Positions 13,848 through 36,481 of a DNA stretch of 64,000 nucleotides are shown piece by piece. The stretch's first letter is position 1. Each line of letters starts with the position of its first letter. The notes under the pieces are model-generated. The model ran no database searches and had not been told where the DNA came from. It worked only from the letters and a program-made list of their open reading frames with translations. The stretch comes from Leptolyngbya boryana PCC 6306 (lineage in GTDB: Bacteria > Cyanobacteriota > Cyanobacteriia > Leptolyngbyales > Leptolyngbyaceae): NCBI RefSeq assembly GCF_000353285.1, contig NZ_KB731326.1:124001-188000 (forward strand), in the 5' to 3' direction. The position numbers and the translations under genes were made by a program.

Positions 13848-13992
13848 TAATGTTTTTTTAAGTTGAGCGTCAAAGTTCTAGAACTTCGATTTAGGATTAG
13901 AACAAACAGCGATTCCAATTCGTTACTAGCTTTCAAGAAATTTATGAACTCTGATCCTGCTCGAACGGACTCTCATCCGTTTGAAAATATTA

Positions 13993-15000
13993 GAGTTGTT
14001 GGGGAATAAGTTAACCTGAAGCAGCAATCTTGCTCGTTATTTCTGAGCTTAAGCTGCTTTCAAGTAGAAGTTCCATAATCCAGCAGCAGTCAGCATCAAA
14101 TGGTCATCAAAATCCTGGATGTGATTACGATAGATGGCGCTGATTGCTCGATAACGCTTGATGCCTGAGAACGCATTCTCGCAAACGACTCGCGACTGGC
14201 TCAGGGTACGATTTTCTTGCTTTTGTTCATCGCTTAACTCACCCCCTCTTGGCTTCTTGTGCGGAATGCGAATGTTCGTGTACTCGGACTGCAAGCCGTG
14301 AAACCCTAAATCGACTTCAATGGGAATCTCATCCGGGATATGAAAAGCAATCTCTTCTTCGGCTTCAAAGCGCTTGTCGTGGAGCTTTCCCTCGCGGGCT
14401 TTGCTCAACACCAACACTCGTTTGGTTTGGTCTACTGCCGCCAAATGCTTGCGGGTATGACGACGCTTTTTGCCGGAGTAGTTTTGCGTCTGCTGTTCTG
14501 CATCTTGAGGGCGTTGAATCGGACGCTCGGTTCCATCAATCATTACCCGTTCCACGCCTGGAAACATCTCCATGAAAGCGTCAATGCTGCGTAACTTGCG
14601 TTCGGGTAACACTAGCTCATGCCCCAATGCAGTTTCGAGAATCGGTTGCAGTTCATGCATCCATTCATGCGTTTGAGAACGGTCAAGGTCAAACAAAATC
14701 CCAGCTAAATCAAATGTCGGGTAGCATTTGAAGTAGAACAAAATGTAAAACAGCTTCGCTTCTGTGTTGTTCAACCTTGCTTTGCGCCCACCGCCCCTGG
14801 CTCGTTTTCGTACTGGCTTTGCCGCAGCGCGGCTTGCCTCATACGCTTGCTCAAAACTTGGTAGCAGTGCATCAAAAGCTTTGCGATTCAGCCCAGTCAA
14901 AGCTCGAAGCAAGCGGTCTTGGTTTAGTGCGCGTTCAAGGTTCAACATCAGATGCAATTCACATGATTTCTGTCTATTATTCTCTATTTCCCAACAACTC
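13993..15000 (-). mobile_element. IS5-type insertion sequence (IS427-like) with TA target duplication
   Basis: The element is 1008 bp. Its ends are inverted repeats: the left starts GAGTTGTTGGGGAATA at 13993 and the right, read inward, starts GAGTTGTTGGGAAATA from 15000. TA occurs directly outside both ends (13991-13992 and 15001-15002), the 2-bp duplication expected for the IS427 group. It carries one leftward transposase and interrupts codon 17 of the Cys-rich peptide gene. Confidence 0.88.
14049..14948 (-). CDS. IS5-family DDE transposase
   Basis: 299 aa from the ATG at 14948; a TTG three codons upstream is possible. The N-terminus has the helix-turn-helix domain of DDE_Tnp_4-type proteins (LTGLNRKAFDALLPSFEQAY). 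The catalytic core has the first Asp in MIDGTERPIQRP, the second in VDLGFHGL and the Glu in CENAFSGIKRYRA. The QNYSGKKRRHTRKHLAAVD segment between them is typical of this group. The frame is intact, so the element may still be active. It lies inside the IS at 13993-15000 and opposes the gene it interrupts. Confidence 0.92.
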   Translation of the reverse strand: MLNLERALNQDRLLRALTGLNRKAFDALLPSFEQAYEASRAAAKPVRKRARGGGRKARLNNTEAKLFYILFYFKCYPTFDLAGILFDLDRSQTHEWMHELQPILETALGHELVLPERKLRSIDAFMEMFPGVERVMIDGTERPIQRPQDAEQQTQNYSGKKRRHTRKHLAAVDQTKRVLVLSKAREGKLHDKRFEAEEEIAFHIPDEIPIEVDLGFHGLQSEYTNIRIPHKKPRGGELSDEQKQENRTLSQSRVVCENAFSGIKRYRAISAIYRNHIQDFDDHLMLTAAGLWNFYLKAA

Positions 15001-15274
15001 TATTGTCTTACCAACTGATCGCCCGGAAATTCTCGCTGCGATCGCAAGTTCACTGGGAGCGGTTGATCAAAGTCAAGAAGTTTTAGACAGCTTTCGCTCC
15101 ATTTTCGGTGGTAGCAGAATTGATGATTCTGCAATCTCAAGCATGAGTTCCTGTGGCTGCGCGATTGCGTGTGGAGGATGCAGCTGTGGCTGTTCTAGCA
15201 GTACTTCGACAACTCAACCGCTTTCCTTCGACTCTACTTCAACCTCTGAGTGGTATTCTCCCAAGTTGTTCTAA

Positions 15275-15697
15275 ATGTACAAGCTAATCGGGCAAAGCAT
15301 CGGAAGCTGCGGCTGTTGAATAGAAATCAATTGCGCGTGCTGGGATCAAGCCGCCGCTTGTGATAGCTTTGTCGCTTATCACATCGAATCTGGCAATATT
15401 CAATCTGTTTCAGTTGATTCTTTGACGATCGTGCGATGGATACAAGAAGCGAATCAAACCTCAATTCTAATGATCGACGACCACGCCACAAGCGAACAGA
15501 TTACTCAATTAGTGCAAGCATTTAATGGTTCTCTGGGCGGCATTCTTGCAGACATTAATCTTGCACTTCCGCCCTGCCAATCGGTAAATGTCTTTCCAAT
15601 TCAATACAAACCACAGCAAGGATTCGCCCAACTACGGATGAGCGGCAGTTGCATCCGTGAAAAAAATCGGTCAAAACCTTTTACCTCTTCATCATGA
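15275..15697 (+). pseudogene. DUF1326-like Cys-motif protein with an in-frame TGA at codon 15
   Basis: The ATG at 15275 follows directly on the stop of the Cys-rich peptide. The frame reads MYKLIGQSIGSCGC and then meets TGA at 15317-15319. Without that stop it continues in the same frame for 140 codons to a TGA that overlaps the DUF2182 start as ATGA (15694-15697). The continuation has the paired Cys motif (CxC, then INCACWDQAAACDSF) and the DUF1326 layout: FVAYHIESGNIQSVSVDS, ILMIDDHATSEQITQLVQAF, LPPCQSVNVFPIQYK. DUF1326 proteins usually accompany DUF2182. It may be a recent pseudogene, a readthrough gene or a recoding site; a pseudogene is most likely. The only in-frame start after the TGA (TTG 15422) would lose the Cys motif. 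Confidence 0.7.
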
Positions 15698-16461
15698 ATT
15701 CATCACGTCCATTCGGATCTACTGCTTGGATTAACTGGAGCAGTCGCCTACTTATTTGGACTATTGTTGCGATCGCGTGGCTTCTATTAATGCTCACTGG
15801 ATATGATCATCAGCACCTCACGAGGCATCACCAATCAGTCACACCGTTGACGAAAACGATTGCCAGACCCTTCGCTTCCTGGCTACTCATGACCATTGCG
15901 ATGATGTTGCCGAGTACAGTGCCAATCGCTGAGAAGTTTGTACAAATTGATGCACGACAAGCTGAAGGGACAACTCAAGCTACCTGTAATCAAATCTTGT
16001 TTTTGATTGCATGTCTAGTGATATGGTCAAGCTTCTCAATCGCGATGATTGCGATCGACATTGGACTTGATTTCTGGCTTTCTCCTCATTTCAAACATCA
16101 TGTATTGTTTCAGCCTCTGATTCTAATCGGAGTTGGAGCGTTTCAATTTACTCCAATGAAACAAGCCTGCTTAAAAGGATGCCGTTCTGTGTCCGCTTTT
16201 ATCGCTCAGTACTATCCGCAAGGCATGATTGGTAGCTGGAATTTAGGATGGCAGCATGGATTATACTGCCTTGACTGTTGTTGGGCACTCATGGTTGGAT
16301 GCGCGGCGATTGGTATAGAGAATTTAAGCAATATGCTAATTTTCACCGCAATTATGACTTTAGAGCGACTTTGGAAGTACGGAGAACACTTATCCATCTG
16401 GATTGGTGTTGTTATGATCGCTCTTGAGATCGTGCTTGTGGTCTATCCTCAGATTAACTAA
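15694..16461 (+). CDS. DUF2182 multi-pass membrane protein (predicted metal-binding)
   Basis: 255 aa with about six membrane segments. Family marks are MTIAMMLPSTVPIAEKF in the second helix region, KQACLKGCRSVSAF, the Cys-rich helix GLYCLDCCWALMVGC, and the final TLERLWKYGEHLSIWIGV. DUF2182 (COG5486) is described as a predicted metal-binding membrane protein and is often next to DUF1326 (COG5588). That pairing occurs here with a 4-bp overlap implying translational coupling. The substrate has not been established to my knowledge. With a Cys-rich peptide as first gene, metal or peptide handling at the membrane is a reasonable inference. Confidence 0.82.
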   Translation: MNSSRPFGSTAWINWSSRLLIWTIVAIAWLLLMLTGYDHQHLTRHHQSVTPLTKTIARPFASWLLMTIAMMLPSTVPIAEKFVQIDARQAEGTTQATCNQILFLIACLVIWSSFSIAMIAIDIGLDFWLSPHFKHHVLFQPLILIGVGAFQFTPMKQACLKGCRSVSAFIAQYYPQGMIGSWNLGWQHGLYCLDCCWALMVGCAAIGIENLSNMLIFTAIMTLERLWKYGEHLSIWIGVVMIALEIVLVVYPQIN

Positions 16462-16752
16462 GCAGTGACTTCCATTGCTGAATCTTCTAATTTTTTCTTG
16501 ATCGCTTTGATCAAGATAGTCACGCTCTCGCATTAATAACTTCAAGCGGCTTCGATCGACTTTAAACATTAACAATGTTATTGATAGCAGCACAAAATGC
16601 TTGTATTTCTCCTAAACTAACTTACAATGTGAGCAAGCAGCAAGACATCAATTTAGAAATCCATCCCTTCACCTAGACAAAGATTGAATAAACAAGCATA
16701 GGCTTGTAATCCCATAGCTGCTGCGTCACTACATTATCAGTGGAGAGTTATT
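16462..16752 (+). promoter_or_regulatory. Upstream region of the Ser-rich small protein, with a 16-bp inverted repeat
   Basis: This 291-bp gap contains no convincing gene. At 16692-16707 lies ACAAGC-ATAG-GCTTGT, a perfect 6-bp inverted repeat about 45 bp before the next start codon, placed well for an operator. A GGAGAG ribosome site lies just before the ATG at 16753. Confidence 0.35.
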
Positions 16753-17043
16753 ATGAGTGGAATTACCAGTTCTAATGGGTCCGTTTCGGTTGGACCTGAA
16801 GGAGTCAGCTCGAATGCTGTGTTCCTGCCAGCAGGCAACCAATCGCAGTATTCTGTTAATTTATCGACTTCGGCTGGCTCTAGCTTTGTTGGAGGCGATG
16901 TCAGTTCTCAGCTTTCAAGTTTGTTAGAGAAGTCGAAGGTTACAGGTCAGCCGCAGTCTACGACTCAAACCACCGAGATTCCTGGTGGTTTCTCGCAGAC
17001 AACTTTGTTTGCTTCTTCTAGCTCTTCTTCAATCAAGATTTGA
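16753..17043 (+). CDS. Small Ser/Gly-rich protein of unknown function
   Basis: 96 aa with a good ribosome site (GTGGAGAGTTATT before the ATG). It has no Cys, no signal peptide and no membrane segment. The sequence is Ser/Gly/Thr-rich: SGITSSNGSVSVGPEGVSSN, then FVGGDVSSQLSSLLEKSKV, ending FASSSSSSIKI. The composition is like small secreted or self-assembling proteins and like substrates of leaderless type I export. A type I exporter is encoded 2 kb downstream, but no direct link is shown. A perfect hairpin follows the stop. It is likely a real gene because of the ribosome site and the flanking signals. Confidence 0.6.
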   Translation: MSGITSSNGSVSVGPEGVSSNAVFLPAGNQSQYSVNLSTSAGSSFVGGDVSSQLSSLLEKSKVTGQPQSTTQTTEIPGGFSQTTLFASSSSSSIKI

Positions 17044-17064: not shown

Positions 17065-17088
17065 AGTTGTGGACATTTCTCCACAACT
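17065..17088 (+). terminator. Hairpin after the Ser-rich gene, next to the IS630 insertion point
   Basis: AGTTGTGGA at 17065-17073 pairs perfectly with TCCACAACT at 17080-17088 around a 6-base loop. It starts 22 bp after the stop codon, as a terminator would. Any T-tract would have been displaced by the IS630 element, whose TA target begins at 17088. Confidence 0.5.
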
Positions 17089-19118: not shown

Positions 19119-20588
19119 TTATCGCCCGGACTTTGCCGAATCTGCTAAATTTATCAGCGACCCCAACACCAATTCGATCGGGCGTTGAGTTCTCGTTTTC
19201 ATTTGGGCGCTGATGGTCATGCCATTTTTTAACGGATGCTTTTGTGCCCCTCGCTCAAGTATCGGTTGATCTAGTCGAATCTGAGCATGGAAGAAAGGCT
19301 GCCCATTCTGGCTCTGAATCGTGTTACTGCTGATATTCGCGATCGACCCTTTGATCGCACCAAACTCAGTAAACGGCAACGCATCGATCCGCACTTCCAC
19401 CGGAGTTCCTACTTTGAGATTGGCGATATCTGCTGGACTAATTTCAACTGTTGCAACTATCGATTCGTTCGGAATCACTTGAAGTAACGGCTGACCCGGT
19501 TGCACAATGCCTCCAGGCAGCGTGACCTCTAATCCTGTCACTGTTCCGGCAGTTGGAGCCACAACTTCTTGAGCCTTTAAGTCAAGGTCGATTTGCTTGA
19601 TCTGAGCATCAAGCTTGATGAGTTGCTCTTGCGCTTCACGGAGTTTGTTGGCAATTTGGCTATCTGCCTGAACTTTCGCGTCAAGCAGTTGACGATAAAC
19701 TTCATCAAGCTGTTGCTGCGTCGTTGTTTGAGTCTTTTGCTGTTCCGCCAGCACTTGCGCTTGCTGCGTCCGTGCTTGAATAATCCGGCTTTGAACTTCA
19801 TTGGCTGCCCCAACTTGATCAAGTACTCCGTTGCGGGAAATGCCACCTTGCGCGAACAGTTGCCCTAGACGCGAGAGCTTATCGCGCTCAATCCTTAATT
19901 GGGCACCCGCATTTTCGATCTGTGCATTAGTGCCGATCGATTGCACTTGCGCTTGAGCAATTTGAATTTGCCGCTCTGATTCGATCATCCTTAATCGCTG
20001 CACAAACAAGTTATAGCTAATCAATTGATCCGGAGCCAACTCTGATGAATTATTCGTCAATTGGGCATTAATTAAGTTACGCTGCCGCAAGAGTGCTGCA
20101 ATTTCTGGCAATGTTGCTAGCACTGAATCTTGCGGATTCACGAATAGCGCTGCACTTGCCTGCCGCAGCACCGCTGCTTGCGCTGCAAACGGTTCGCGCT
20201 GTTTCTTCAGCGACAATAGCTGATTAAACAACTCTGACTTATCAATCTGCACTAATAGTTGCCCAGATTGAACAACATCGCCGTCTTTGGCAAGAACTGC
20301 TGTGATGCGCCCGCCTCGAATCGATTTGAGCGTTTGCGCCGAGGATAATGAATCAATCCGACCCCGTGCCGAAACAACGACATCCAGTTCAGCTACACAC
20401 GCCCAAACAACGGTTCCACTAAGTGTCACCACAAGTGATCCGATCACCATCATTACCCATCGGGGGCGATTGTCATATTCCGGTTCAAACGTCGATGCAA
20501 CTTGCTCTTGTTCTGTTTCAGATCGCTTGATTAAACTTAATGGGCGCTTGATGCGATAGGTCAATTGCCAAATCCAATGTTTCAGCAT
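19119..20588 (-). CDS. HlyD-family periplasmic adaptor of a type I secretion system
   Basis: 489 aa with a strong ribosome site (CTGGAG) before the ATG at 20588. One membrane helix lies at ~44-64 (VMMVIGSLVVTLSGTVVWAC). After it comes the lipoyl/beta-barrel half-motif (SARGRIDSLSSAQTLKSIRGG, DGDVVQSGQLLVQID), a long coiled-coil hairpin at ~190-345, and the closing domains (VVAPTAGTVTGLEVTLPGGIV, VEVRIDALPFTEFG, GMTISAQMKT). Membrane-fusion proteins join the ABC exporter to an outer-membrane TolC-type channel. No TolC gene is in the window. The gene follows the ABC transporter by 13 bp. Confidence 0.93.
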   Translation of the reverse strand: MLKHWIWQLTYRIKRPLSLIKRSETEQEQVASTFEPEYDNRPRWVMMVIGSLVVTLSGTVVWACVAELDVVVSARGRIDSLSSAQTLKSIRGGRITAVLAKDGDVVQSGQLLVQIDKSELFNQLLSLKKQREPFAAQAAVLRQASAALFVNPQDSVLATLPEIAALLRQRNLINAQLTNNSSELAPDQLISYNLFVQRLRMIESERQIQIAQAQVQSIGTNAQIENAGAQLRIERDKLSRLGQLFAQGGISRNGVLDQVGAANEVQSRIIQARTQQAQVLAEQQKTQTTTQQQLDEVYRQLLDAKVQADSQIANKLREAQEQLIKLDAQIKQIDLDLKAQEVVAPTAGTVTGLEVTLPGGIVQPGQPLLQVIPNESIVATVEISPADIANLKVGTPVEVRIDALPFTEFGAIKGSIANISSNTIQSQNGQPFFHAQIRLDQPILERGAQKHPLKNGMTISAQMKTRTQRPIELVLGSLINLADSAKSGR

Positions 20589-20601: not shown

Positions 20602-23600
20602 TTAACTCGGTTGTTGTAATTGTTGTTGATACAAGCAGTAATAGTTTTGCCGTCGAGCCATCAATTCCAGATGTGAGCCTTGCTCGATAATCAATCCGGA
20701 CTGCATATACAAAATCAAATCCGCTCGTCGCAAATTTGAGAGTCGGTGCGTAATAAAGAAGCACGTTGTGTCACCAAATCGCCGCATCAAGTTATCAACC
20801 ACTCGTCGCTCGGTTTCGGCATCGAGCGCACTGGTAGCCTCATCGAGAATGACTAATCGCGGATTGCGATATACCATTGCCGCGATCGCAATTCGCTGGC
20901 GTTGTCCTCCAGACAGCGATGAGCCTCGTTCTCCGACTTCTGTTCCATACCCATCAGGCAAACTTAAGATAAAATCATGCGCTTCAGCAATTTTTGCCGC
21001 TTCTACAACGGCTGCTTCATCAACATCTTCGTTCCCGCCTGCAATATTCGATCGCAGCGTTCCCCGAAATAGATTGGGTTCTTGCTGCACTACCCCGATC
21101 TGCTCACGCAAGGATTTGAGATTGATTTTGGCAATATCAATGTCGTCGATATAAACCTGCCCGCTCATCGGCGCGTAATAGCGCGGTAGCAGTTTTAATA
21201 ATGTACTTTTCCCAGAGCCGCTTTGCCCGACGACTCCGACAAAAGTTCCAGCCGGAATGTCGATCGACACTTTGTTAAGCTGTAGCTGTCCGGGCTGAAA
21301 GCCAAACTCAACCGAATCGTACTGCACATGACCCTCGATCTGAGGAAGTGCCAACCGACGCGCATCAACTTCTGAAAACTCTGGCGGTTCGTTTTTCACA
21401 TCTGCCAACAAATTCATCGATACATCAGCTTCTTGAGCATTGCGCCACAACCCGGATAAGCGTACCAATGGCTGTGTGACATATCCCGCAATGATGCGAA
21501 AAGCAATTAACTGTCCGAGCGTGAGATCGCCATTGAGTACCGCATTTGAGCCGACCCATAGCACCAATAAGCTACTAAAGTTACTGACGAAACTATTCAC
21601 TGCCTGAAACGATGCGCCTAACATCGTCGTTTTGAGTCCGGTTTTGAGATATGCCCGATACTGTTGCCGCCAGGTTGCGAGAATGGCGAATTCCATGCGT
21701 TGCGATTTAACGGTAAACATTCCGTTCAGCATCTCGATCAGATGAGACTGCATCTGAGCGTGTTGATCGGATCGCTTGCGAATCAGTTCTTGAAACACTG
21801 GAGCCGCAACCAGCGTTAAACCGATGATTACAGGGACTGTCACCAGCACGCAGACTGTTAGAACGCCACTGTAAATCAGCATTACACAGACATAGATGAT
21901 CGAAAACAGTACGTCTAGTACAACTGTAAGGAATGTAGTTGTAATAAACTGCTGCACTTTTTCGAGTTCATTAATCCGGGCAGCAATTTCACCCACAGGG
22001 CGCTTTTGAAAAAAGGGCAGTGGTAGATTAAACAGATGCTCAATAATCTGGTATCCCAACAGTAAGTCAACGCGGTTCGTCGTGTTATTTAGCAAGTAGG
22101 TTCGTGCTACGGTTATTGCCGCCTCGATTGCACTTGATCCCATCAGCAAAATTCCAAAAACTGGCAACGCTCCAGGACTAGAATTAATGATCACACGATC
22201 AACGATTTGCTGCGTCAGAAGCGGGTTAGCCAGTCCTAGAAGCTGCACGACGATCGAAGCCATCAAAACGTACAGTAGCGTTGGCGTTTGTGGCATAAAT
22301 GCGCCGATTAGCCACCACCAACCGAAGCGATCGGTACGGCTCTGGGCTTGACGACCGAGAACGATCGCAGTGCCAGTCGTATTCTTCTGAAGAACAGCAG
22401 CAATCTCACGCGAAGAACGCCGCATTAATCCCGATGGAGTCGCAAACACCACCGCCTGATCGCTGGCTTCGTACATAACGCACAATTCATCTTGAATCTG
22501 AATCAAAGCGGGCGTTTGTAGCCGGGATATACCGCCTGCGGTCGTCGGGAATTTTACTGTTTGAGCGCTTAATCCAAACGCATCTGCGATCGCAGCGTAC
22601 CAATCCATCCGATCTCGCGGTTGCGATTCAAGCTGCTGACTCCACTGCCGCAAAAATTCTGGTTTGTATGGAACTTCTAATAATTCACATACATTCCAGA
22701 ACGCAGTCACAACTGATTCCGCAAATGTTTGATTCCGCGCTGTGTGCGCTGGATAAAGTTTGGGAGTTCGATTCGGCAGAGGCCTTGGAACTGAGGTTTT
22801 TGCCAACGCTTCAAGTCGCGCCAACACTAACTCTCCGCTTCCTGAATCTGCAATGATCGCGTCTGGCGCGGGCAATAATCCGGTCGAAAGTGCGGCGCTC
22901 AAAAAGGTACGATCGATCCCTAACAGCCGGATTGGGATCGATCGGGATTTGAACTGCGGTAAGTCTGCGATCGATTCAACGATCGTTCCAATCGGTAACG
23001 ACTGATGTGTACTGCTGCTGACAAACCATAAGTATCCAGATGAAAGATGAAACGTCGGGTCGTTTTGTCCAAACCAATGCCTCACGGTCGCACAACTTTG
23101 AGTCACAATATGACGACTCACTTCGCTTAGATCTGGCAGATTGAGTTTCGTCGGAATGGTATTGCAAAAGCGCAGTAGTACATCGTACACTTCAACGAAG
23201 CTAACGTGTTTTGAGAGCGTCGGCAGTAACTCTTGCAGAATCGATTCAAAATCCTCGATCGTTAAACCGAGTGTAATGACTTCTTCGAGACCCGCGGCAC
23301 GTACTGATCCGAACGTAGACCGCCGAACAACGCTTTCCCATCCAAACACCTCCCCTTCATGCAGAACTCCAAGCGTTGGGGCTTCTTGATCCGCAGGTCC
23401 AACAACTCGCACTTGTCCTTGGACGACGCAACATACTTCGATTGGGAATGAATGTTCCGGCTGAATGACCTGTCCTGGACGAAAACTATTAATCCGAACT
23501 TTTGACGAAATCTGATAGCAAGTGTTTGGCAGCAAATCCTCGAACAATGCTGCACTGAAAAAGGTCGGCAGAAACGATCGCGGCTGAAGCGGCATTTCAC

Positions 23601-23604
23601 TCAT
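20602..23604 (-). CDS. Type I secretion ABC exporter with N-terminal cyclic-nucleotide-like domains and an inactive C39-like domain
   Basis: 1000 aa. Residues ~20-150 form a cNMP-binding-like fold (FRPGQVIQPEHSFPIEVCCVVQGQV). A C39-like domain covers ~285-415, but it lacks the catalytic CG motif (FWNVCELLEV) and the active His, so it should bind cargo without cleaving it, as in HlyB. Six membrane helices lie at ~440-700. The nucleotide domain has Walker A GQSGSGKST (~790-798), signature LSGGQRQR (~895), Walker B LVILDEATSALD (~920) and the H-loop in ITHRLSN. Its start overlaps the PPIase stop as ATGA. The RTX proteins encoded at 28276 and 35345 are natural cargo candidates. Confidence 0.93.
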   Translation of the reverse strand: MSEMPLQPRSFLPTFFSAALFEDLLPNTCYQISSKVRINSFRPGQVIQPEHSFPIEVCCVVQGQVRVVGPADQEAPTLGVLHEGEVFGWESVVRRSTFGSVRAAGLEEVITLGLTIEDFESILQELLPTLSKHVSFVEVYDVLLRFCNTIPTKLNLPDLSEVSRHIVTQSCATVRHWFGQNDPTFHLSSGYLWFVSSSTHQSLPIGTIVESIADLPQFKSRSIPIRLLGIDRTFLSAALSTGLLPAPDAIIADSGSGELVLARLEALAKTSVPRPLPNRTPKLYPAHTARNQTFAESVVTAFWNVCELLEVPYKPEFLRQWSQQLESQPRDRMDWYAAIADAFGLSAQTVKFPTTAGGISRLQTPALIQIQDELCVMYEASDQAVVFATPSGLMRRSSREIAAVLQKNTTGTAIVLGRQAQSRTDRFGWWWLIGAFMPQTPTLLYVLMASIVVQLLGLANPLLTQQIVDRVIINSSPGALPVFGILLMGSSAIEAAITVARTYLLNNTTNRVDLLLGYQIIEHLFNLPLPFFQKRPVGEIAARINELEKVQQFITTTFLTVVLDVLFSIIYVCVMLIYSGVLTVCVLVTVPVIIGLTLVAAPVFQELIRKRSDQHAQMQSHLIEMLNGMFTVKSQRMEFAILATWRQQYRAYLKTGLKTTMLGASFQAVNSFVSNFSSLLVLWVGSNAVLNGDLTLGQLIAFRIIAGYVTQPLVRLSGLWRNAQEADVSMNLLADVKNEPPEFSEVDARRLALPQIEGHVQYDSVEFGFQPGQLQLNKVSIDIPAGTFVGVVGQSGSGKSTLLKLLPRYYAPMSGQVYIDDIDIAKINLKSLREQIGVVQQEPNLFRGTLRSNIAGGNEDVDEAAVVEAAKIAEAHDFILSLPDGYGTEVGERGSSLSGGQRQRIAIAAMVYRNPRLVILDEATSALDAETERRVVDNLMRRFGDTTCFFITHRLSNLRRADLILYMQSGLIIEQGSHLELMARRQNYYCLYQQQLQQPS

Positions 23605-24404
23605 GAGTCACCCGCATTGATTTGAGCAATTTCAGCTTGTCGCGCCCGAACGGTCTGCTCGCTCAGCCAACGCGCAAATAAAGAATTGATTAACTCTGCA
23701 CGGAGGACTTCGGTTAATCGTGCGCCGTGGAACCGCTCCAACCGAACAATACAATACTGACCATTGATCTCGATTGGTCCGTATATTTTTCCGACTTCCC
23801 CCGTACAAAACAACACTCGAATCGGCTCTGGTAAGTTTGCTAGCTTCATCGGTCCCACCCATCCTTGCGTCGATCTCTCAGATCCTTCTGAATGTCGCTG
23901 AGCAATCTCACCAAAATCCTTGCCATCATCGCGAATTTGAAACAGAACCTCTGCGGCAAAGTTAGCATCGCTCGTTTGTACAAGTGAAAATTCTACTTGG
24001 TCATAGTTTGATCGCGATCGCAAAAACTCTGATTCAATCTGGGGTGCAAACTGTTGCTTGAGTTTTTGCATCCGAATTTCGCGCATCGCCTTGGACTTTA
24101 GTTGATCGATCGACATCTGATACTGTTGTGCCCGCTCGCTCAAAAATTGCTCCAATGCTTCGGGATCAGGCATTGACGCACGATCGCGTCCACTAAGTAG
24201 TTCAAATAAATCCGCTCCAGTCACTTCGATACTAGGAAGAACTTGGAAGTCAAGAAAGAGTTGTTCGAGCAAGGTGCTGAGTAATCCATAATGCGCGATC
24301 GCATTATAAAGTTGCTCACCCGTTAGCTCTAATTTGCCGAATGTAAGACAAATAGACATATTGAAACTGTTTTGCTGAAACTTCGGTACGAGCAATCGTG
24401 GCAT
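23601..24404 (-). CDS. PpiC/parvulin-type peptidyl-prolyl isomerase of the secretion operon
   Basis: 267 aa; the ATG at 24359 (MSICLTFGKLELTG) is a possible shorter start. Residues ~60-130 are helical, SurA-like. The parvulin domain lies at ~135-235: VEFSLVQTSDANFAAEVL, FGEIAQRHSEGSERSTQGWVG and KIYGPIEINGQYCIVRLER. In cyanobacteria such isomerases are commonly encoded in front of cNMP-type ABC exporters and HlyD, exactly as here. It has no signal peptide, so a cytoplasmic chaperone for export cargo is more likely than a periplasmic one. It is the first gene of the leftward operon. Confidence 0.85.
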   Translation of the reverse strand: MPRLLVPKFQQNSFNMSICLTFGKLELTGEQLYNAIAHYGLLSTLLEQLFLDFQVLPSIEVTGADLFELLSGRDRASMPDPEALEQFLSERAQQYQMSIDQLKSKAMREIRMQKLKQQFAPQIESEFLRSRSNYDQVEFSLVQTSDANFAAEVLFQIRDDGKDFGEIAQRHSEGSERSTQGWVGPMKLANLPEPIRVLFCTGEVGKIYGPIEINGQYCIVRLERFHGARLTEVLRAELINSLFARWLSEQTVRARQAEIAQINAGDS

Positions 24405-28275: not shown

Positions 28276-29199
28276 ATGCAACAAAACTCCAAGACTGATC
28301 GCAACAGCGCGGGAGTGGTCACACTAGAGCAATTACATAGCTCTAGCCAGAATCATTCTTCTAGCGGATTCGCTAGCCAAGATAAAGAGATCAAAAGAGT
28401 ACTTGGCAATGTTTTTAACATCAATATTGATGTTAAAAACCACACAGATAAATCATCGTCGTCTGGGCAGAAGAAAGACGAATCGAAGTCGATCGATGCT
28501 GCCTTCAAAGACAATAAAGACCACAAAGACAAGAAAGCTCCATCGACCGGGAACAAAGAAGAAACGAAAAAGCTCGATGCCAACTTTGACCCTAAATCGA
28601 ACATCAACAGTAAAGATCAATCAAAACCATCCGGAAAGTCCAGCGATCAAAAATCTAAAGAAACTGATCTTGGCATTCCCGAAGAAGTCCTCCACATTGA
28701 TCCGGCGAAGCTCAAAGATGTGAAGTCGCTCGATGCAAGCAAAGTCAAAATCGAGCGAGATCTTGAGAAGAAGCTTGGAAAAGACGGAGACTTCCTTGAT
28801 CCTGGCGGTGGAATTAACACCGTGATCGGTGGCTTCGGCAATGATATTGTTCGCGGTGATGGTAGAGGCTTTAATACGATCGCAGGTGGCGGTGGTGAAA
28901 ACCTCTTCATCCTCGGTTCTGAAACTACTAACCGCATTTTCGACTTTGACCCGACCAAAGACCGCTTCGGATTAACAGACGGATTGCAAGTTGCAGATAT
29001 TCAGTTTGGACAAGGGACAAATCCTACGAAAGCAGGCATTGACTCGCCATTAGACAGCAATGCCACAGTGATTTTTGACAAGAACGGCGAAAACCACATC
29101 TTAGGCAGTCTCGCATTCACTAAAGCTGTTGATTTGAGCGAGAAGAATTTTGTTGTGGTTCGAGACAATGACTTGAATAAAGTTGCACAAACCGTTTAG
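28276..29199 (+). CDS. RTX-type calcium-binding protein, predicted type I secretion cargo
   Basis: 307 aa with no N-terminal signal. The first ~130 residues are disordered and very Lys/Asp/Ser-rich (SSSGQKKDESKSIDAAFKD). The C-terminal half has degenerate RTX nonapeptides (GGGINTVIGGFGNDIVRGDG, NTIAGGGGENLFILGS), then the RIFDFDPTKDRFGL segment that often follows RTX repeats. Such proteins leave through HlyB/HlyD-type exporters using an uncleaved C-terminal signal and fold on calcium binding outside. The exporter operon lies 4 kb upstream. The next gene (CHRD) starts 9 bp downstream. Confidence 0.8.
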   Translation: MQQNSKTDRNSAGVVTLEQLHSSSQNHSSSGFASQDKEIKRVLGNVFNINIDVKNHTDKSSSSGQKKDESKSIDAAFKDNKDHKDKKAPSTGNKEETKKLDANFDPKSNINSKDQSKPSGKSSDQKSKETDLGIPEEVLHIDPAKLKDVKSLDASKVKIERDLEKKLGKDGDFLDPGGGINTVIGGFGNDIVRGDGRGFNTIAGGGGENLFILGSETTNRIFDFDPTKDRFGLTDGLQVADIQFGQGTNPTKAGIDSPLDSNATVIFDKNGENHILGSLAFTKAVDLSEKNFVVVRDNDLNKVAQTV

Positions 29200-29208
29200 G
29201 AGGGATAC

Positions 29209-30045
29209 ATGGTAGCAACCCTAGAAAAAAAAGGAACGCAGTTTGGCGCTGATACTAGCATCGAACAACACAAATCGGACAATCACAATCATGGCAGCCA
29301 GGGGTCGTCGATTCAGAAAGAAGATGCGGCAAAAAGCTTGAATAAAGCTTTGGGCGGAGACGATCATAATCATGCCATTCCAGAGGGAACGATCGAGCTA
29401 CAGCGCACCGACAAAGGTGGCTACAAACAGCAAGATTTGCTGAAACAAGGCAAGCTGTTTGGTAGCGATGGCAATGATTTTCTGAACGCAAGCAAAAAAG
29501 AAATTAAAGGAACGGCAACAGGTACTGGCTCTGGAGAGTTTCCATTTCCCAACGACTCAAAAGGAACGACAACCCTCACTGCTGCATTGAAAGCAGATGG
29601 CAACCTAAAGATCGACGGCAGTTTCAAAGACTTTGATGGCGCTCCGTTGTTTAGCCAGGGAGAAAAGGAGATTGATCCTAAAGCTAAGATTCTCAACGGA
29701 TCAGATCCGAAAGCGCTTGTCGATGGATTTCTGAAAGTGCCGCATGATGTTGAAGGTAATCCACTTTCTGGAACACATTTGCACTTCGCGCCTTCTGGCG
29801 ATCAACGCGGAAACAATGCGGATGCTACTGTTGTTCGCTTCCTGGATAACAAAGTGAACCGCGATGGCAAATCTGGTAAGATTTCCGGCGACTTTAAACT
29901 CAAGCCAGAAGAACAAGCCGCCTTTGCAGCAGGAAATCTTTACGTCAATGTTCACTCGAACGTGGACGTGAATAAAGATGGAAATGCAGGTTTTCCCACC
30001 GGAGAGAATCGCGTCAACTTTAATCAGAACGTCGTTAGAAAATAG
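29209..30045 (+). CDS. CHRD-domain protein, predicted secreted
   Basis: 278 aa with a textbook ribosome site (AGGAGGGATAC) before the ATG. The N-terminal ~80 residues are polar and His-rich (HKSDNHNHGSQ; DDHNHAIPEG), a possible metal-binding segment. The CHRD (chordin-like) domain spans ~95-275: TTLTAALKADGNLKIDGSFK, GTHLHFAPSGDQRGNNADAT, and the signature NLYVNVHSNVDVN ... GFPTGENRVNF. A short GSDGNDFLNAS motif resembles a single RTX unit. There is no signal peptide, so export by the local type I system is likely. The biochemical role of bacterial CHRD domains is unknown to me. Confidence 0.85.
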   Translation: MVATLEKKGTQFGADTSIEQHKSDNHNHGSQGSSIQKEDAAKSLNKALGGDDHNHAIPEGTIELQRTDKGGYKQQDLLKQGKLFGSDGNDFLNASKKEIKGTATGTGSGEFPFPNDSKGTTTLTAALKADGNLKIDGSFKDFDGAPLFSQGEKEIDPKAKILNGSDPKALVDGFLKVPHDVEGNPLSGTHLHFAPSGDQRGNNADATVVRFLDNKVNRDGKSGKISGDFKLKPEEQAAFAAGNLYVNVHSNVDVNKDGNAGFPTGENRVNFNQNVVRK

Positions 30046-30093: not shown

Positions 30094-31965
30094 ATGGTTG
30101 ATCAAATTGAACAATTTTGCGATCGCTATTTCGTCATCAAGGAACTCGGTTCTGGAGGATTCAGCCGAACCTTTCTCGCTCGCGATCTCGAAATGGTTGG
30201 GTACCCATTTTGCGTCGTCAAGTGCCTGACTCTGGATGCGGCAAACGAAGTTGGCAACATGGCGGAATTGCGGCGACAGTTAATCGTTCAAGAAGCTCGC
30301 ATTCTAGAGCGATTCAAAGGATCAACTGCCAATGTTCCACGCATTCTGGCATGTCCCGAACATCATCATCCGGTATACCTTGTTGAAGAGTACATCGAAG
30401 GTCAAGTCCTGGAAGTTCTCAAGCAGCAGCCTTTTAGCGAAGCACAAATTGTTTCATTACTGCAAAATGTGTTGTCGGTTCTTGAAGTAATTCATCGCCA
30501 TCGTGTCGTTCATCAAGATATCAAGCCGAGCAACCTGATTCGTCGCAACGACGGGTCGATCTCGGTGATCGATTTTGGCGCAGCGATCGATTTAGATGAA
30601 TTCGTCGAAGACAGTTCAATCTACGGCACACCTGGCTATAGTCCACCCGAACAGCAAGACGGCAAAATTGACTTTCATACCGACTTGTATGCACTAGGAA
30701 TCACGGCGATCGAGCTGTTATCCGGGGTCGCACCCCAACAGCTTGAACGTCATCCAAATTCAGGTAAGCTACAGTGGCAGGAGCAACTCGGTGCATCGAT
30801 TCATCCAAAAGTTGCAGCAATCCTTGATCGCTTAGTTGCTCTGCGTCCTGCGGATCGCTACATAAGAGCAATCGATGTGTTGGCAGATTTACAGCAACTG
30901 CGTGTTGATTCTCGGCTCGCGGCACTTCCGAATCGAATCGGTCATTCAGTGATTCGTTCGATCCTCCAAGCTTCCCAGCCCATTGTCTCGAAATGCCGTT
31001 CGATACAGTCACAATCACTCGTGACTCCAACTATCTTTGGTTTAGCGATTATTTGTGGCTTTGGATTTGTTCCACTGGTCCCGCGTATGACCGATACAAT
31101 CGCTGCACAAATGAGCATAATACAAAATCAGCCAGTCGTTGATTTATCGCTGATTCACAAGTTACCGCTCTCCAGCACGATCGATCAGTTTCTCGTTGTC
31201 GATCATCAGCTCGTGACGTTCGATCGCAACGATCAGGTTCAAGTTTGGGATTTATCAACCGGAAAAGTTCAGCAAGGCTGGACGACCTCAGGCATGATCG
31301 AAATGCTAACAATGACACGCAATCATTTAGTGAGCCAGCGCGACGAGTCGTTGACCGTTTGGCAACTCTCCACAGGAAACGTTCTTCACCAGATCGCATT
31401 GCCCGAACCTGCCAACACTGCATCGCTGAGTGCAGATGGACAGCACCTCGCAACCGTAAGTCCTAGTCACACTTTGCGAGTGTGGAACATGACGACCGGA
31501 AAGTTACTGCGAACTGTTCCTGGGATCACTGCCGCACAGTACGCCCCAGATAATCGGCTGTTTTGTGCAACCACGCGATCGCGTATTGATGTTTGGGATG
31601 CTGAATACAGTCAATTGCAGCAAAGTTTAGCTGGACATCTCGGCAATATTACAGTGTTTAACTTTAGTGAGAATGGAACTGGATTAACCAGTACAGCGAG
31701 CGACGGCACGATCGTCTGGAATCTGGAGACTTCAGAACTCCTGCACGTGTTGCCGACCAAGGTAAGAACAGCTGCAATCTTACCGAACTATCTTGTAACT
31801 CAGCATGAAGATGGGACAGTCCGGTTGTTGGAATCAACTGGAAAACTGGTTAAGCCACTCGCTTATCTTCAAAGCAGAGTTGCTATGACCGCTAACGCTC
31901 ACTATGTCGTGCAAATCACGCCTCAACAACTCGAAATTTGGCAGCTATCTAAAACAGAACCATGA
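30094..31965 (+). CDS. Ser/Thr protein kinase fused to a WD40-like propeller
   Basis: 623 aa. The kinase domain covers ~10-275: GSGGFSRTFLARD glycine loop, Lys in FCVVKCL, catalytic loop HQDIKPSN (Gln replaces Arg of HRD, so an RD-independent kinase), DFGAA, and GTPGYSPPEQ. A membrane helix lies at ~310-330 (TPTIFGLAIICGFGFVPLV). The C-terminal ~270 residues form WD40-like blades (QVQVWDLSTGKVQQGW, LTVWQLSTGNVLHQI, TLRVWNMTTGKLLR). The stop overlaps the next start (ATGA), so kinase and polyferredoxin are translationally coupled. The nearby FHA protein is an obvious phospho-dependent partner, by inference from gene order. Confidence 0.9.
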   Translation: MVDQIEQFCDRYFVIKELGSGGFSRTFLARDLEMVGYPFCVVKCLTLDAANEVGNMAELRRQLIVQEARILERFKGSTANVPRILACPEHHHPVYLVEEYIEGQVLEVLKQQPFSEAQIVSLLQNVLSVLEVIHRHRVVHQDIKPSNLIRRNDGSISVIDFGAAIDLDEFVEDSSIYGTPGYSPPEQQDGKIDFHTDLYALGITAIELLSGVAPQQLERHPNSGKLQWQEQLGASIHPKVAAILDRLVALRPADRYIRAIDVLADLQQLRVDSRLAALPNRIGHSVIRSILQASQPIVSKCRSIQSQSLVTPTIFGLAIICGFGFVPLVPRMTDTIAAQMSIIQNQPVVDLSLIHKLPLSSTIDQFLVVDHQLVTFDRNDQVQVWDLSTGKVQQGWTTSGMIEMLTMTRNHLVSQRDESLTVWQLSTGNVLHQIALPEPANTASLSADGQHLATVSPSHTLRVWNMTTGKLLRTVPGITAAQYAPDNRLFCATTRSRIDVWDAEYSQLQQSLAGHLGNITVFNFSENGTGLTSTASDGTIVWNLETSELLHVLPTKVRTAAILPNYLVTQHEDGTVRLLESTGKLVKPLAYLQSRVAMTANAHYVVQITPQQLEIWQLSKTEP

Positions 31966-33671
31966 ACTTTTTCCGCGTCAGCGAAGGTAAACTCCAATGG
32001 ATTCGCACTGCTTTGCTTCTCGGTTGGGCAACAATCATCCTCTCAATGTTTTGGGACCCGATCACCCCTCACCTTACTAACCCTAGTGCGATCGGATCTC
32101 CGTTTCGGCTCAATCCAGACATCTACCTCAATCCAGACCGTTGCGTGAAGATTCGCGTCGATTGCATTCCAGAGCAACCCTTTTCATTGGGAACCTTGCT
32201 TTGGTGGGCAGCGATCGTGCCAGCGGCAATTCTCATTCTGCTCGTGCTTGGACATGAATTCTGGCGGCGCATTTGTCCGTTGTCATTTGTGTCGCAGATC
32301 CCCCGTGCTTTGGGCATTCAACGCACACGCAAACTGATCGACCCGATCAGCGGCGAGATTCGACGGGAACCTGTGATCATCGACGAGAACTCTTGGCTGG
32401 GTAAAAACCATCTAATCGTTCAGTTTGGCTTGTTCATTCTGGGATTGTGGGCACGACTTGTATTTGTGAACGGGCATCGATTCACGCTGGGTTGCTTTTT
32501 GATTGCCACAATCATTAGCGCGATCGTCGTAGGCTATCTATATGCCGGAAAATCCTGGTGTCAGTATTTCTGTCCGATGGCTCCGGTACAGATGGTTTAC
32601 ACCGGACCACGATCGCTGCTTGGGTCTAAAGCTCATTTACAGCCTAGAGGAGCCGTAACGCAATCAATGTGTCGTACTATCGGTGCAGATGGCGTTGAAG
32701 AGTCTGCTTGTGTAGGTTGTAAGCGTTCGTGCATCGATACCGATGCAGAAAATACATACTGGACGGAGTTGAACAAGCCAGGACGCAAATTAATCCAGTA
32801 CGGCTATTTAGGAATGGTGCTAGCGTTTTACTGGTATTTCTATCTGTACGCTGGCAACTGGGACTATTACTTCAGTGGGGCTTGGGCACATGAAGAAGCC
32901 TTGCTCGATCGATTACTTGATCCTGGTTTTTACATCAGTGGCGTTGCTGTTCCAATTCCCAAGATTATTGCCCCATTGTTGCTATTTGCAGTTGCTGTGA
33001 CTGCTACTTACTCCCTGGGCATCTGGTTAGAAAAACAGTATCGATCGTATCGTCGTCGTCAGCAGCCTGTGAGTAAAGAGCAAGCACAGCACGTCATTTT
33101 CAGCTTGTTCACTGTGGTTTCGTTTTGGGCATTTTTTGTCTTTGGCTCACGTCCGACTCTGAACCGCTTTCCGATGATTGTTCCGGCAATTAATGTCGTC
33201 ATTGTCATTGTTGGGGTATTGTGGCTGTTGCAAACGATCAATCGTAAACGTGCCCATTACGATCGTGAACGTACCTCGATCATGCTGCGCCGACAGCTAC
33301 ACCACTTTGATCTTCCTGATTCTTGGCTCGATGGTCGATCGATCGAGGATTTGAGTGCCGATGAAGTCCATTTATTAATCAAAGCATCACATGGGTCCCG
33401 CATACAGGCATATCTTGGCGTGGTGCAAGAACTGCTCGAACAGGGGGTGATCGAAGCATCAGATTCGCTCCACTTTTGCCGCAATCTCCGTCAAAGTTTG
33501 GGACTCTCGGACGGTGATCACCAAGATGTAATTCGACAGATCCCCAGTCATCTGCTGTATCACATTCCCGCTCCGCAGCCCGTTTCCACACAAACTGCAA
33601 CCGTGGTGTTTAAAGACCGTCAACGTCCAACATCGACTACGTTGCAGACCGTTCCTTATCAACGGAAATAG
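31962..33671 (+). CDS. Membrane polyferredoxin (NapH/CcoG-like 4Fe-4S protein)
   Basis: 569 aa with about seven membrane helices. Hallmarks are two half-sites of the NosR/NapH/RdxA group, WRRICPLSFVSQIPR (~95) and SWCQYFCPMAPVQMVYTGPR (~200), plus a loop CRTIGADGVEESACVGCKRSC that can hold 4Fe-4S clusters. The C-terminal ~170 residues are soluble, with no clear family. NapH-like proteins move electrons between quinol or ferredoxin and periplasmic redox partners. It lies between a kinase (4-bp overlap) and an FHA-reductase-ferredoxin fusion (3-bp gap), so the three gene products probably form one complex. The acceptor is unknown. Confidence 0.85.
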   Translation: MNFFRVSEGKLQWIRTALLLGWATIILSMFWDPITPHLTNPSAIGSPFRLNPDIYLNPDRCVKIRVDCIPEQPFSLGTLLWWAAIVPAAILILLVLGHEFWRRICPLSFVSQIPRALGIQRTRKLIDPISGEIRREPVIIDENSWLGKNHLIVQFGLFILGLWARLVFVNGHRFTLGCFLIATIISAIVVGYLYAGKSWCQYFCPMAPVQMVYTGPRSLLGSKAHLQPRGAVTQSMCRTIGADGVEESACVGCKRSCIDTDAENTYWTELNKPGRKLIQYGYLGMVLAFYWYFYLYAGNWDYYFSGAWAHEEALLDRLLDPGFYISGVAVPIPKIIAPLLLFAVAVTATYSLGIWLEKQYRSYRRRQQPVSKEQAQHVIFSLFTVVSFWAFFVFGSRPTLNRFPMIVPAINVVIVIVGVLWLLQTINRKRAHYDRERTSIMLRRQLHHFDLPDSWLDGRSIEDLSADEVHLLIKASHGSRIQAYLGVVQELLEQGVIEASDSLHFCRNLRQSLGLSDGDHQDVIRQIPSHLLYHIPAPQPVSTQTATVVFKDRQRPTSTTLQTVPYQRK

Positions 33672-33674: not shown

Positions 33675-35240
33675 ATGCTAAGACTGCGATCGAGCTATCT
33701 TCCAGATTTATTCTCAGGCTCTAGCTTTGGAAAGCATCTGTTAGCTCAGAACGACCATAATCAAACGACCTGGAAAATTGGGCGATCTCCGGAGTGTGAC
33801 TTAACACTAAATGATGCCAAAATTAGTGGTACTCATGCGATTGTTCAGTTTATCGACGGCAACTTCTACTTTATGGATGTGGGGAGTAGCAATGGCTCGA
33901 TCGTCAACGGCGACCTGTTGCCGCCCAACACCTTGCATAAAATTGCCGTAGGGGACGAAATTGCAGTAGGGGAAACCTTGTTGCACGTTGATGAAGTCAT
34001 GCTGCTTCCATCTGCGACTCACACATCGAGCGTGAATGTTTCTTGGTGGATTAATCAAGATATCGATGCTCACTGTGTTGATATTATTGATGAAACCCCG
34101 GATGTGAAAACGTTCTCGTTCGTTGCAGATCCCGCACTGCTGTTTCTTTATCGTCCTGGGCAGTTTGCGCGGCTAGAGTTTCAAATCGAGGGAGAGCGAA
34201 TCGTTCGGGCGTACACGATGTCGTCAAGTCCATCTCGACCTGACCTGCTACAATTCACGGTAAAACGTGCTGTGCGCTCTGAAACAGACATTTCGGTATC
34301 GAATTGGCTGCATGATCGGTTTCAGGTTGGCAATTCGATTCGGATTTTAGGAGGTGCGAAAGGATCATTTACGCCCGCACCGCAGTTTCCACCAAAATTA
34401 CTGCTTGTCTCTGCTGGCTCAGGCATTACGCCGATGATGTCAATCTCTCGGTATCTGTCTGATTTGCGATCAACGATCGATGTCGTGTTTTTCCACTCCG
34501 CCCGGACGCTTGACGACTGCATTTTTCTCGACGAGTTAGAGTTAATTGCGAATCAAAACGTCAACTTCAAGCTCAAAATTGCACTGACGCAACCACAGCC
34601 TAAATCTGCTTGGCTTGGATTTACTGGACATTTAGATACAGCGATGCTGCAAATGATCGCACCGGATGTCGCAGAACGTCATGTGTTTGTCTGTGGTCCC
34701 GATGGCTTTATGAATCACGTCAGACAGTTGTTTGGAATAATCGACTTTCCAATCGCGCAGTATCACGAAGAAAGTTTTGGTGAAGTTGAAGGCATTCCGG
34801 TAGAGCCAATTCCGGAGACGATCAATGACGTGCCTGTTCTCGATCCGACTCCGCTTCCGACCATAGAACTTAACTCTAATGAGGTAGCTTCACCCGACAC
34901 GATCGCGCCTGAGCCAGTCCCTCAACCGAGTACTGCTCCGTCTGCATCAAGTCCGTCATCGACGACTGCTCCCACCATTCGATTTAAGCGATCCAACAAG
35001 TCAATGGCAGTTGATATAAAAACGAGCATTCTCGATGCGGCTGAAAAGCTCGGAGCCGATATTAACCTGAATGGCTGTGGGGCAGGACGATGTGGGGCGT
35101 GCAAGGTGAAGGTTTGCGGCACGATCGAGTATCCGAATAAACAGCCCAATCCGGCTGCTTTATCTGCACAAGAACATCAAAACGGCTACGTCTTATCTTG
35201 CATTGCTTATCCAATCGGCAGCGTTGAAGTAGACGCTTGA
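33675..35240 (+). CDS. FHA domain - flavin reductase - plant-type 2Fe-2S ferredoxin fusion
   Basis: 521 aa. Residues ~30-110 form an FHA phosphothreonine-binding domain: IGRSPECDL, SGTHAIVQF, VGSSNGSIVNG. Residues ~130-375 form a ferredoxin-NADP-reductase fold: FAD motif RAYTMSSSP, nucleotide motifs LLVSAGSGITPMMS and VFVCGPDGF. A Pro/Thr-rich linker (~380-430) leads to a plant-type ferredoxin domain with CGAGRCGACKV and a distal Cys in VLSCIAYP (CX4CX2C...C). It resembles Hcr/phenol-hydroxylase-type reductases with an FHA module in front. FHA should bind a phosphorylated partner, most simply a target of the kinase two genes upstream. Electrons from NAD(P)H would pass via FAD and 2Fe-2S to the polyferredoxin. 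Confidence 0.92.
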   Translation: MLRLRSSYLPDLFSGSSFGKHLLAQNDHNQTTWKIGRSPECDLTLNDAKISGTHAIVQFIDGNFYFMDVGSSNGSIVNGDLLPPNTLHKIAVGDEIAVGETLLHVDEVMLLPSATHTSSVNVSWWINQDIDAHCVDIIDETPDVKTFSFVADPALLFLYRPGQFARLEFQIEGERIVRAYTMSSSPSRPDLLQFTVKRAVRSETDISVSNWLHDRFQVGNSIRILGGAKGSFTPAPQFPPKLLLVSAGSGITPMMSISRYLSDLRSTIDVVFFHSARTLDDCIFLDELELIANQNVNFKLKIALTQPQPKSAWLGFTGHLDTAMLQMIAPDVAERHVFVCGPDGFMNHVRQLFGIIDFPIAQYHEESFGEVEGIPVEPIPETINDVPVLDPTPLPTIELNSNEVASPDTIAPEPVPQPSTAPSASSPSSTTAPTIRFKRSNKSMAVDIKTSILDAAEKLGADINLNGCGAGRCGACKVKVCGTIEYPNKQPNPAALSAQEHQNGYVLSCIAYPIGSVEVDA

Positions 35241-35344: not shown

Positions 35345-36481
35345 ATGGCTCAGAAATTTCCAGTTTTTCCCACAGTTCCCACTCGTGGTGGAACCCGCAA
35401 TAACGATGTCTTGCTCGGTGACTCCAATCGCGGTAACACTTTGGTCGGCAACGGTGGTAGCGATCGCATCGTTGGCGGTCGCGGTAACGATGTGCTGGTA
35501 TCCGGCGATGCTTCTAACTTCATTTTACCGACCCCGATGCCCACGTCTCCAGAGGCAATGACACCGCTTGCCCCAACGACACCTGCAATTCAACCGCTCA
35601 CAGGAACTCCAGGCAACGATACGCTGAATGGAACCGAGCAGGCTGAGATTATCACGGCTGGTAAAGGTTCAGATACGATCTCTGGGAATGGCGGTAATGA
35701 TTTCTTTATCTGGAACCCCGGCGACGGACCAGATATTGTTCATGGTGGCGCAGGGTTAGATACTTCGGTGATCAATGGTGGCGCTGAAGGCGAGCTCTCC
35801 ATGCTGCGAATGAACAACGGAGTCGCTGTGTTCAATCGCTTGACTCAGACTCCCTTTAGCGTAACGCACGACGGAACTGAGGTTGTTCAGGTCGAGTCGA
35901 ACGAAGGGAATGACATTTTGATCGCAGACAAAATTGCAGGTTCAGGAGCGTCGCTGCTCGCATTTTCAGGCGGCGGAGGCAACGATGTCTTGTTTGCTGG
36001 AACCGTGGATACCGAGGTTTCCACAACAGGCGGTGCAGGCGATGATATCCTCATCGGCGGTCAGAAACTGAATACGATCGATGGTGGCAGCGGCAATGAT
36101 TTTCTCGTTGGCAATCAAGGCATGGATCGCTTCGTGTTTAGTTCAGGCAAACCGTTCAATACAACTGACCTCGGCGTAGACACGATCGCGAACTTCAACC
36201 CGACTCAAGACAAGATTCATTTGAGTAAAGCGACGTTTGCTTCGATTGCGACTCAACCCGGACAGACACTCGGAGCCTCTGACTTCGCGCGTGTGGATAG
36301 CGACGAAGCAGCAGCATTAAGTGCTGCCAAGATTACTTATGTTCAACCGACTGGCAGTAGCTCTGGCAAGCTGTTTTATAATGCTAACGGTGCTGAAGCT
36401 GGACTGGGCAACGGGGCGCAGTTTGCTGTAGTTGCAGGCGCTCCAGCACTAAGCGATCAAAATTTCGCACTGGTCGCGTAG
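35345..36481 (+). CDS. RTX calcium-binding protein, predicted type I secretion cargo
   Basis: 378 aa. Residues ~15-60 hold one RTX block (GGTRNNDVLLGDSNRGNTLV, VGGRGNDVLVSGD), then a Pro/Thr linker (~60-80), then further blocks: LTGTPGNDTLNGTEQAEII, SGNGGNDFFIWNPGDGPDIV, SGGGGNDVLFAG, DGGSGNDFLVGNQGMDRFVF. The ending (FNPTQDKIHLSKATF ... ALSDQNFALVA) is typical of the C-terminal export signal region. There is no N-terminal signal. It is last in the rightward train, 104 bp after the FHA fusion, and is followed by a hairpin. Export by the 19-24 kb system is likely. Confidence 0.9.
   Translation: MAQKFPVFPTVPTRGGTRNNDVLLGDSNRGNTLVGNGGSDRIVGGRGNDVLVSGDASNFILPTPMPTSPEAMTPLAPTTPAIQPLTGTPGNDTLNGTEQAEIITAGKGSDTISGNGGNDFFIWNPGDGPDIVHGGAGLDTSVINGGAEGELSMLRMNNGVAVFNRLTQTPFSVTHDGTEVVQVESNEGNDILIADKIAGSGASLLAFSGGGGNDVLFAGTVDTEVSTTGGAGDDILIGGQKLNTIDGGSGNDFLVGNQGMDRFVFSSGKPFNTTDLGVDTIANFNPTQDKIHLSKATFASIATQPGQTLGASDFARVDSDEAAALSAAKITYVQPTGSSSGKLFYNANGAEAGLGNGAQFAVVAGAPALSDQNFALVA

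Follow-up and report, generated by a model that had tools for sequence, protein, structure and literature searches.

Bacterial metallothioneins such as SmtA are short, Cys-rich proteins whose Cys residues occur in CxC pairs. Among mobile elements, a 3-bp ANT target duplication is generated by members of ISL2, a group within the IS5 family. Cys-rich sequences are also found in the FibroRumin family of radical-SAM-modified RiPPs, which is represented by the model TIGR04135. A close counterpart of the operon considered here is the PpoB1-PpoB2 tyrosinase operon of Marinomonas mediterranea, and a passage of PMC2855505 reports that PpoB2 of Marinomonas is involved in copper transfer to tyrosinase. 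The ISL2 group is named in a passage of PMC12730594.

We analyzed a stretch of 64,000 nt from Leptolyngbya boryana PCC 6306 (hereafter the window) that is part of a 413,092-bp plasmid contig in a genome of 7.26 Mb and five contigs. The window shares with the operon of Mar. mediterranea a gene for a PpoB2-family (DUF2182, COG5486) membrane protein; however, none of the 47 ORFs in the window with a length of 170 aa or more matches a tyrosinase family, and the window operon additionally includes a DUF1326 gene and a gene for a small Cys-rich protein. The Cys-rich protein resembles the SmtA-type metallothioneins in being short and rich in CxC pairs but, unlike these, the window sequence and its three relatives described later match no metallothionein model from Pfam or NCBIfam, have long flanks, and are encoded in a copper-chaperone operon. 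We propose, with a probability of roughly 0.6, that the Cys-rich gene, which is split by an insertion sequence (IS), opens a three-gene operon for copper handling that is largely dead in this strain, and that its intact product would hand copper over to the DUF1326 protein and PpoB2. Literature searches with the names DUF2182 and DUF1326, which would miss other spellings, returned no paper.

An IS5-Family Element within a Probable Cys-Rich Gene

The features of the operon and of the element that interrupts it are as follows.

13944..13991, + strand: putative 5' part of the Cys-rich gene ahead of the element, 16 codons beginning with ATG (from the sequence and from the position of the ExL motif and the first Cys relative to the three relatives)
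13989..13991, no strand: left copy of the target-site duplication ATT
13992..15001, - strand: IS5-family insertion sequence of 1010 bp (copies in the same genome, inverted repeats)
14049..14957, - strand: transposase ORF of the element, 302 aa (Pfam DDE_Tnp_4, 9e-27; HTH_Tnp_4, 1.6e-9)
15002..15004, no strand: right copy of the target-site duplication ATT
15005..15274, + strand: 3' part of the Cys-rich gene behind the element, 89 codons plus TAA, including the six-Cys cluster (from the sequence and the match to the relatives)
15275..15697, + strand: DUF1326 gene broken by a TGA codon (PF07040 match across the stop; 1.2e-13 after it)
15694..16461, + strand: open gene for a membrane protein of the DUF2182/PpoB2 copper-chaperone family (PF09948, 4.7e-46)

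The element encodes a DDE_Tnp_4-type transposase between inverted repeats, which places it in the IS5 family, and the initial annotation was correct in recognizing an IS5-type element that splits an ORF. However, it set the ends at 13993 and 15000 with flanking TA dinucleotides. The genome contains four full-length copies of this element and two short matches, and the ends of these copies can be read either as GAG..CTC (GAC..CTC in the copy L004) with a TA repeat or as one base wider on each side with a 3-bp repeat. All four full-length copies show the 3-bp repeat as either ATT or AAT, and TA fits all four as well but is shorter. One of the copies (L003:1500-2509) splits a response regulator gene, and this gene matches the Pfam model Response_reg with 88.0 bits if the 3-bp repeat is assumed as compared with 81.6 bits under the TA model. 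Given the longer repeat and the better response regulator score, we dropped the TA duplication, assigned the element to 13992-15001, and take 105 codons as the original frame. The DDE_Tnp_4 transposase and the 3-bp ANT duplication are common to the window element and the ISL2 group, and from its duplication the element is presumably ISL2-like.

The insertion had also been described as a recent inactivation, which the comparisons do not bear out. The window copy has 91% identity to L002 and L003, two copies without differences between them, and 79% identity to L004; with the nearest copies in the same genome at 91% identity, the age of the insertion is not readable from the element. Furthermore, a search for the empty site, i.e., the insertion point without the element, gave no such site in any of 42 genomes of the family, our own included, and thus no IS-free strain. 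The region from 13001 to 17000 of the window is identical in plasmid records of the L. boryana strains NIES-2135 and IU 594. These were the only plasmid records with the split-gene piece in a search that possibly omitted records close to the query genome, and the records listed for IAM M-101 and dg5 showed only a different copy of the IS.

Other mobile elements are present in the window. A second element at 17087-18509, which we take to be IS630-like, has inverted ends of 32 nt and contains two ORFs that overlap and match HTH and DDE_3 families; beside it, an ORF at 18571-19086 matches DUF1822 over less than half of the Pfam profile, and a 96-aa Ser-rich ORF (16753-17043) without a Pfam or NCBIfam match is located between the IS630-like element and the copper operon. 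A reverse transcriptase of the group II intron type, equipped with maturase and HNH domains, is encoded at 57338-59053 and a further maturase-HNH stretch at 62726-63505.

Uninterrupted Relatives in Other Cyanobacteria

We identified uninterrupted Cys-rich ORFs in three other genomes, i.e., G021 (strain LEGE 13415, same genus), G133 (strain FACHB-502), and G150, in which they have a length of 146 aa, 171 aa, and 160 aa, respectively, as compared with 105 aa for the window peptide. By intact relatives we mean ORFs that are intact as read from the sequence. In all three genomes, the gene order is Cys-rich ORF, short DUF1326 gene, and PpoB2-family gene, with a PF09948 match for the last gene in each case, as had been anticipated for uninterrupted homologs beside DUF1326 and DUF2182. 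The Cys-rich ORF directly adjoins the DUF1326 gene in G021 and G133, and in G150 the two are separated by a 390-aa transposase ORF (DDE_Tnp_1, L029:7446-8618), a second insertion within the same operon in a different genome.

All four sequences have six Cys within 14–16 residues, arranged as a dense cluster with CxC pairs. In the three relatives the cluster begins with C-G-C, ends with C-x-C, and is preceded by an E-I-L motif. The fourth Cys of the window peptide is shifted by one place from the pattern of G150 and G133. The piece downstream of the insertion scores 16.7 bits against an HMM of the three relatives, a score that none of 500 shuffles of the whole piece reached; shuffles limited to the Cys cluster reached it in 4 of 500 cases and shuffles of the stretch between the insertion and the cluster in 28 of 500, so that this stretch is weakly supported. 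Among 1210 open frames in the window, the frame of the downstream piece is the best match (14.8 bits; runner-up, 8.2).

The family is rare. Searching 376 genomes of the class, with at most ten candidates scored per genome, revealed no further strong match to the Cys-rich protein and three more with E values of 0.0016 to 0.0087, and no further strong relatives were found in 42 genomes of the order or in 36 genomes of the order to which G150 belongs. Genome contigs searched with the window fragment gave 369 pattern matches but no relatives, whereas the relatives' alignment gave two loci, which are the contigs of G133 and G021. Matches of the downstream piece in its own genome (E values of 0.0056 and 0.061) and in G037 (E value of 0.0082) have stops in or near the match, and we judged them to be due to chance. 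No Pfam or NCBIfam model matches the window piece or the three relatives above its cut-off, a sequence search of the PDB gave nothing useful (the sole profile match was FtsY with an E value of 0.96), and a structure model of the Cys-rich protein of a relative is poor (mean pLDDT of 43.8). When 376 genomes of the class were searched once for the Cys-rich protein and once with the DUF1326 profile, the top four matches of either search fall in the same four genomes; however, one of the alignments was built entirely from these four genomes and the other entirely from three of them, so this co-occurrence is not independent.

The Original Reading Frame

The ATG at 13944, the 16 open codons that follow it, and the frame that is open after the element to the TAA at 15274 are all present as initially annotated. 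Joining them gives 106 codons, which is arithmetically correct, but the join retains one duplicated codon and the original frame would have had 105. The Cys-rich tail does contain six Cys, in a span of 14 residues rather than 15. The split gene is real, and we regard it as likely, from the sequence comparisons, that the joined frame minus one codon is its original frame.

Of 20000 random sites on both strands of the window, 2928 (15%) have an open in-frame ATG 8–30 codons upstream; therefore, continuity of the frame alone is weak evidence, and it is the relatives that carry the case. This rate also speaks for a rival reading, in which the element inserted upstream of a shorter gene that starts elsewhere and the 16 codons are open by chance, and so does the score, to which the 16 upstream residues add hardly anything (+0.5 bit against the relatives' HMM, equaled by 286 of 500 shuffles of these residues). 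Two observations make a shorter gene distinctly unlikely. First, no in-frame ATG, GTG, or TTG is present from 15005 until the ATG at 15143, just ahead of the Cys cluster, and a start at this codon leaves 43 residues and loses the ExL region. Second, the spacing counted from 13944 agrees with that in the three relatives: in the joined protein the E-[IV]-L motif paired by the alignment occupies residue 41, as compared with residues 37, 38, and 42 in the relatives (a second, unpaired copy of the motif is at residue 24), and the first Cys is residue 66 as compared with residues 55, 61, and 62. It is this agreement in position, to which the sequence score adds no support, that suggests that the gene originally began with the 16 upstream codons.

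The DUF1326 Gene and Its In-Frame TGA

The second gene of the operon is also broken. Its codon 15 is an in-frame TGA (15317-15319) between two CxC motifs, and the TGA is identical in the NIES-2135 and IU 594 plasmid records. A scan with PF07040 detected DUF1326 in 13 of 388 genomes of the class, and only in this genome is there a stop inside the match. A structure model of the DUF1326 protein of a relative is poor (mean pLDDT of 52.1). The position of the TGA between two CxC motifs speaks for a selenocysteine codon, and either selenocysteine or a sequencing error would mean that the second gene is not broken. However, among the tRNA-Sec candidates in the genome, of which 150 of 703 were scored, none exceeded the Rfam cut-off, and the eight of ten sub-threshold matches for which loci were given proved to be ordinary tRNAs for Leu, Ser, and Gly, which led us to reject the selenocysteine reading. 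A sequencing error or a selenocysteine is also at odds with the identity of the region from 13001 to 17000 in two other records and with the DUF1326 matches of the 12 other genomes, none of which has an internal stop, and we consider an unbroken second gene most improbable.

DUF2182/PpoB2 and the Handling of Copper

The third gene is open and its product matches PF09948 with 157.5 bits (cut-off, 28.7); the corresponding proteins of the three relatives also exceed the cut-off. As here, G103, G162, and G178 have a DUF1326 gene that encodes CxC motifs and, as judged by ORF position, a DUF2182-like ORF behind it, but the DUF1326 proteins of these genomes are 200–209 aa, and the 11-kb stretches contain no free-standing small ORF with a CxC cluster. 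Downstream of the pair in G162 is a 139-aa ORF with 15 Cys and no Pfam match (L034:2756-3175) that is reminiscent of the four-helix copper-storage proteins. On a 10-kb contig of G044, a short DUF1326 gene and a DUF2182-like ORF are near genes for an HMA-domain heavy-metal P-type ATPase and for a small HMA protein of 73 aa (L027:3223-8821). Neither G044 nor G005 has a Cys-rich ORF just upstream of DUF1326.

Of the two roles that had been suggested for the peptide, i.e., a RiPP precursor or a small metal-binding peptide, the CxC cluster and the DUF1326/PpoB2 neighbors favor the second; metal binding is the best reading of the Cys-rich protein, and copper handling fits best. Copper binding by this protein is suggested by analogy, from the names of the families, the neighboring genes, and one paper on another organism. 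The intact protein would hold Cu(I) in a thiolate cluster formed by the CxC pairs and would pass it to the DUF1326 protein and the membrane protein PpoB2. These two would then deliver copper to an exported or periplasmic copper protein or, alternatively, aid in its removal. Since the IS follows codon 16 in the first gene and a TGA replaces codon 15 in the second, the operon would be largely dead in this strain. The identity of the metal, the order of transfer, and the loss of function are what we infer from the arrangement of these genes.

Is the Peptide a RiPP Precursor?

The initial annotation also considered a RiPP precursor with a double-Gly leader. In this reading, a helical leader would be cut at the IFGG site and the Cys-rich core modified and then exported as a bacteriocin-like product by the neighboring ABC transporter. 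IFGG indeed precedes the Cys cluster of the window peptide, and the window piece has a Cys/Gly-rich stretch in common with the FibroRumin family, matching TIGR04135 with 20.2 bits and an E value of 4.4e-4; however, the cut-off of this model is 45, none of the three relatives match it, and IFGG is absent from all three, which have no GG ahead of their clusters. An ABC exporter and an HlyD-type adaptor are encoded nearby and are kept in G150 and G133, and among the lower-ranking matches of the window exporter are bacteriocin and NHLP export ABC models, but these fall below their cut-offs and match from position 54, 88, or 93 on, and neither the window exporter nor that of G133 matches Peptidase_C39. 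A family scan of the 47 ORFs in the window that reach 170 aa (E value limit of 0.001, and 0.1 for part of the scan) revealed no radical SAM enzyme, YcaO, lanthipeptide synthetase, or C39 peptidase; the absence of a radical SAM family together with the low score also sets the locus apart from FibroRumin. Without GG in the relatives, a C39 domain, or a RiPP enzyme among these ORFs, a double-Gly RiPP is not supported, and we regard it as highly doubtful.

Neighboring Secretion, Redox, RTX, and CHRD Genes

The genes that flank the copper operon between 19 and 36.5 kb of the window include the following.

19119..20588, - strand: HlyD-type adaptor of a type I secretion system (Pfam; 38% identity to G133/G150)
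20602..23604, - strand: ABC exporter, nearest NCBIfam model type_I_sec_HlyB, below cut-off (45-46% identity to G133/G150)
23601..24404, - strand: PpiC-type isomerase (conserved in G133 and G150)
28276..29199, + strand: ORF resembling the non-CHRD part of the CHRD protein at L028, no Pfam match (conserved in G133 and G150)
29209..30045, + strand: CHRD-domain protein (PF07452, 8.4e-8; conserved in G021, G133, and G150)
30094..31965, + strand: protein kinase with WD40-like repeats (conserved in G133 and G150)
31962..33671, + strand: membrane protein with a weak 4Fe-4S (Fer4_5) match (52-55% identity to G133/G150)
33675..35240, + strand: FHA - NAD/FAD reductase - 2Fe-2S protein (conserved in G133 and G150)
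35345..36481, + strand: RTX (calcium-binding repeat) protein (similar to RTX proteins of G133, G150, and G021)

The ABC exporter additionally has a match to a cNMP-binding domain that is just below the cut-off. Matches to the genes of this region are found within about 17 kb around the Cys-rich gene in G133 and within about 25 kb in G150. Homologs of the FHA-reductase protein are encoded in 75 of 376 genomes of the class at an E value of 1e-30; the family is thus common and not specific to the copper operon. At other FHA-reductase loci (12 stretches, one of 4.3 kb), a CxC pattern was present in a free-standing 39-aa ORF at L083 and in a nested ORF at L087, and we judged both to be noise. We found no literature on type I secretion with RTX and CHRD proteins in cyanobacteria.

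These neighbors raise the question of whether the Cys-rich protein might itself be an exported substrate of the type I system, acting in copper scavenging or at the surface, rather than a cytoplasmic metal carrier. As judged from the sequences, the exporter, adaptor, and PpiC genes are kept near the operon in G150 and G133, and the relatives have a long C-terminal part, both of which would be consistent with secretion; but no RTX-repeat match was found in the three Cys-rich relatives, and a more obvious substrate is the RTX protein encoded nearby in this region. We therefore consider secretion of the Cys-rich protein rather unlikely. A further proposal, which we see as unlikely, would link copper loading and secretion in one island, in which a new Cu(I) carrier together with DUF1326 and PpoB2 would load a protein exported by the type I system while electrons from the Fer4_5 protein and the FHA-reductase would keep the copper reduced.

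Implications for the DUF1326 and DUF2182 Families

Returning to the reading of the split gene as part of a copper-handling operon, its relatives adjoin copper-delivery genes, and it therefore looks like a disrupted member of a small family whose proteins probably handle copper, rather than like a peptide-antibiotic gene. As an IS insertion the case is ordinary, and what changes in its interpretation is the 3-bp duplication and a frame that is one codon shorter. The rare Cys-rich family, by comparison, offers a lead on the biology of DUF1326 and DUF2182: it links these little-studied copper genes to a small Cys-rich partner for which Pfam and NCBIfam have no model, and the uninterrupted copies in other cyanobacteria make the proposed role of the Cys cluster testable.
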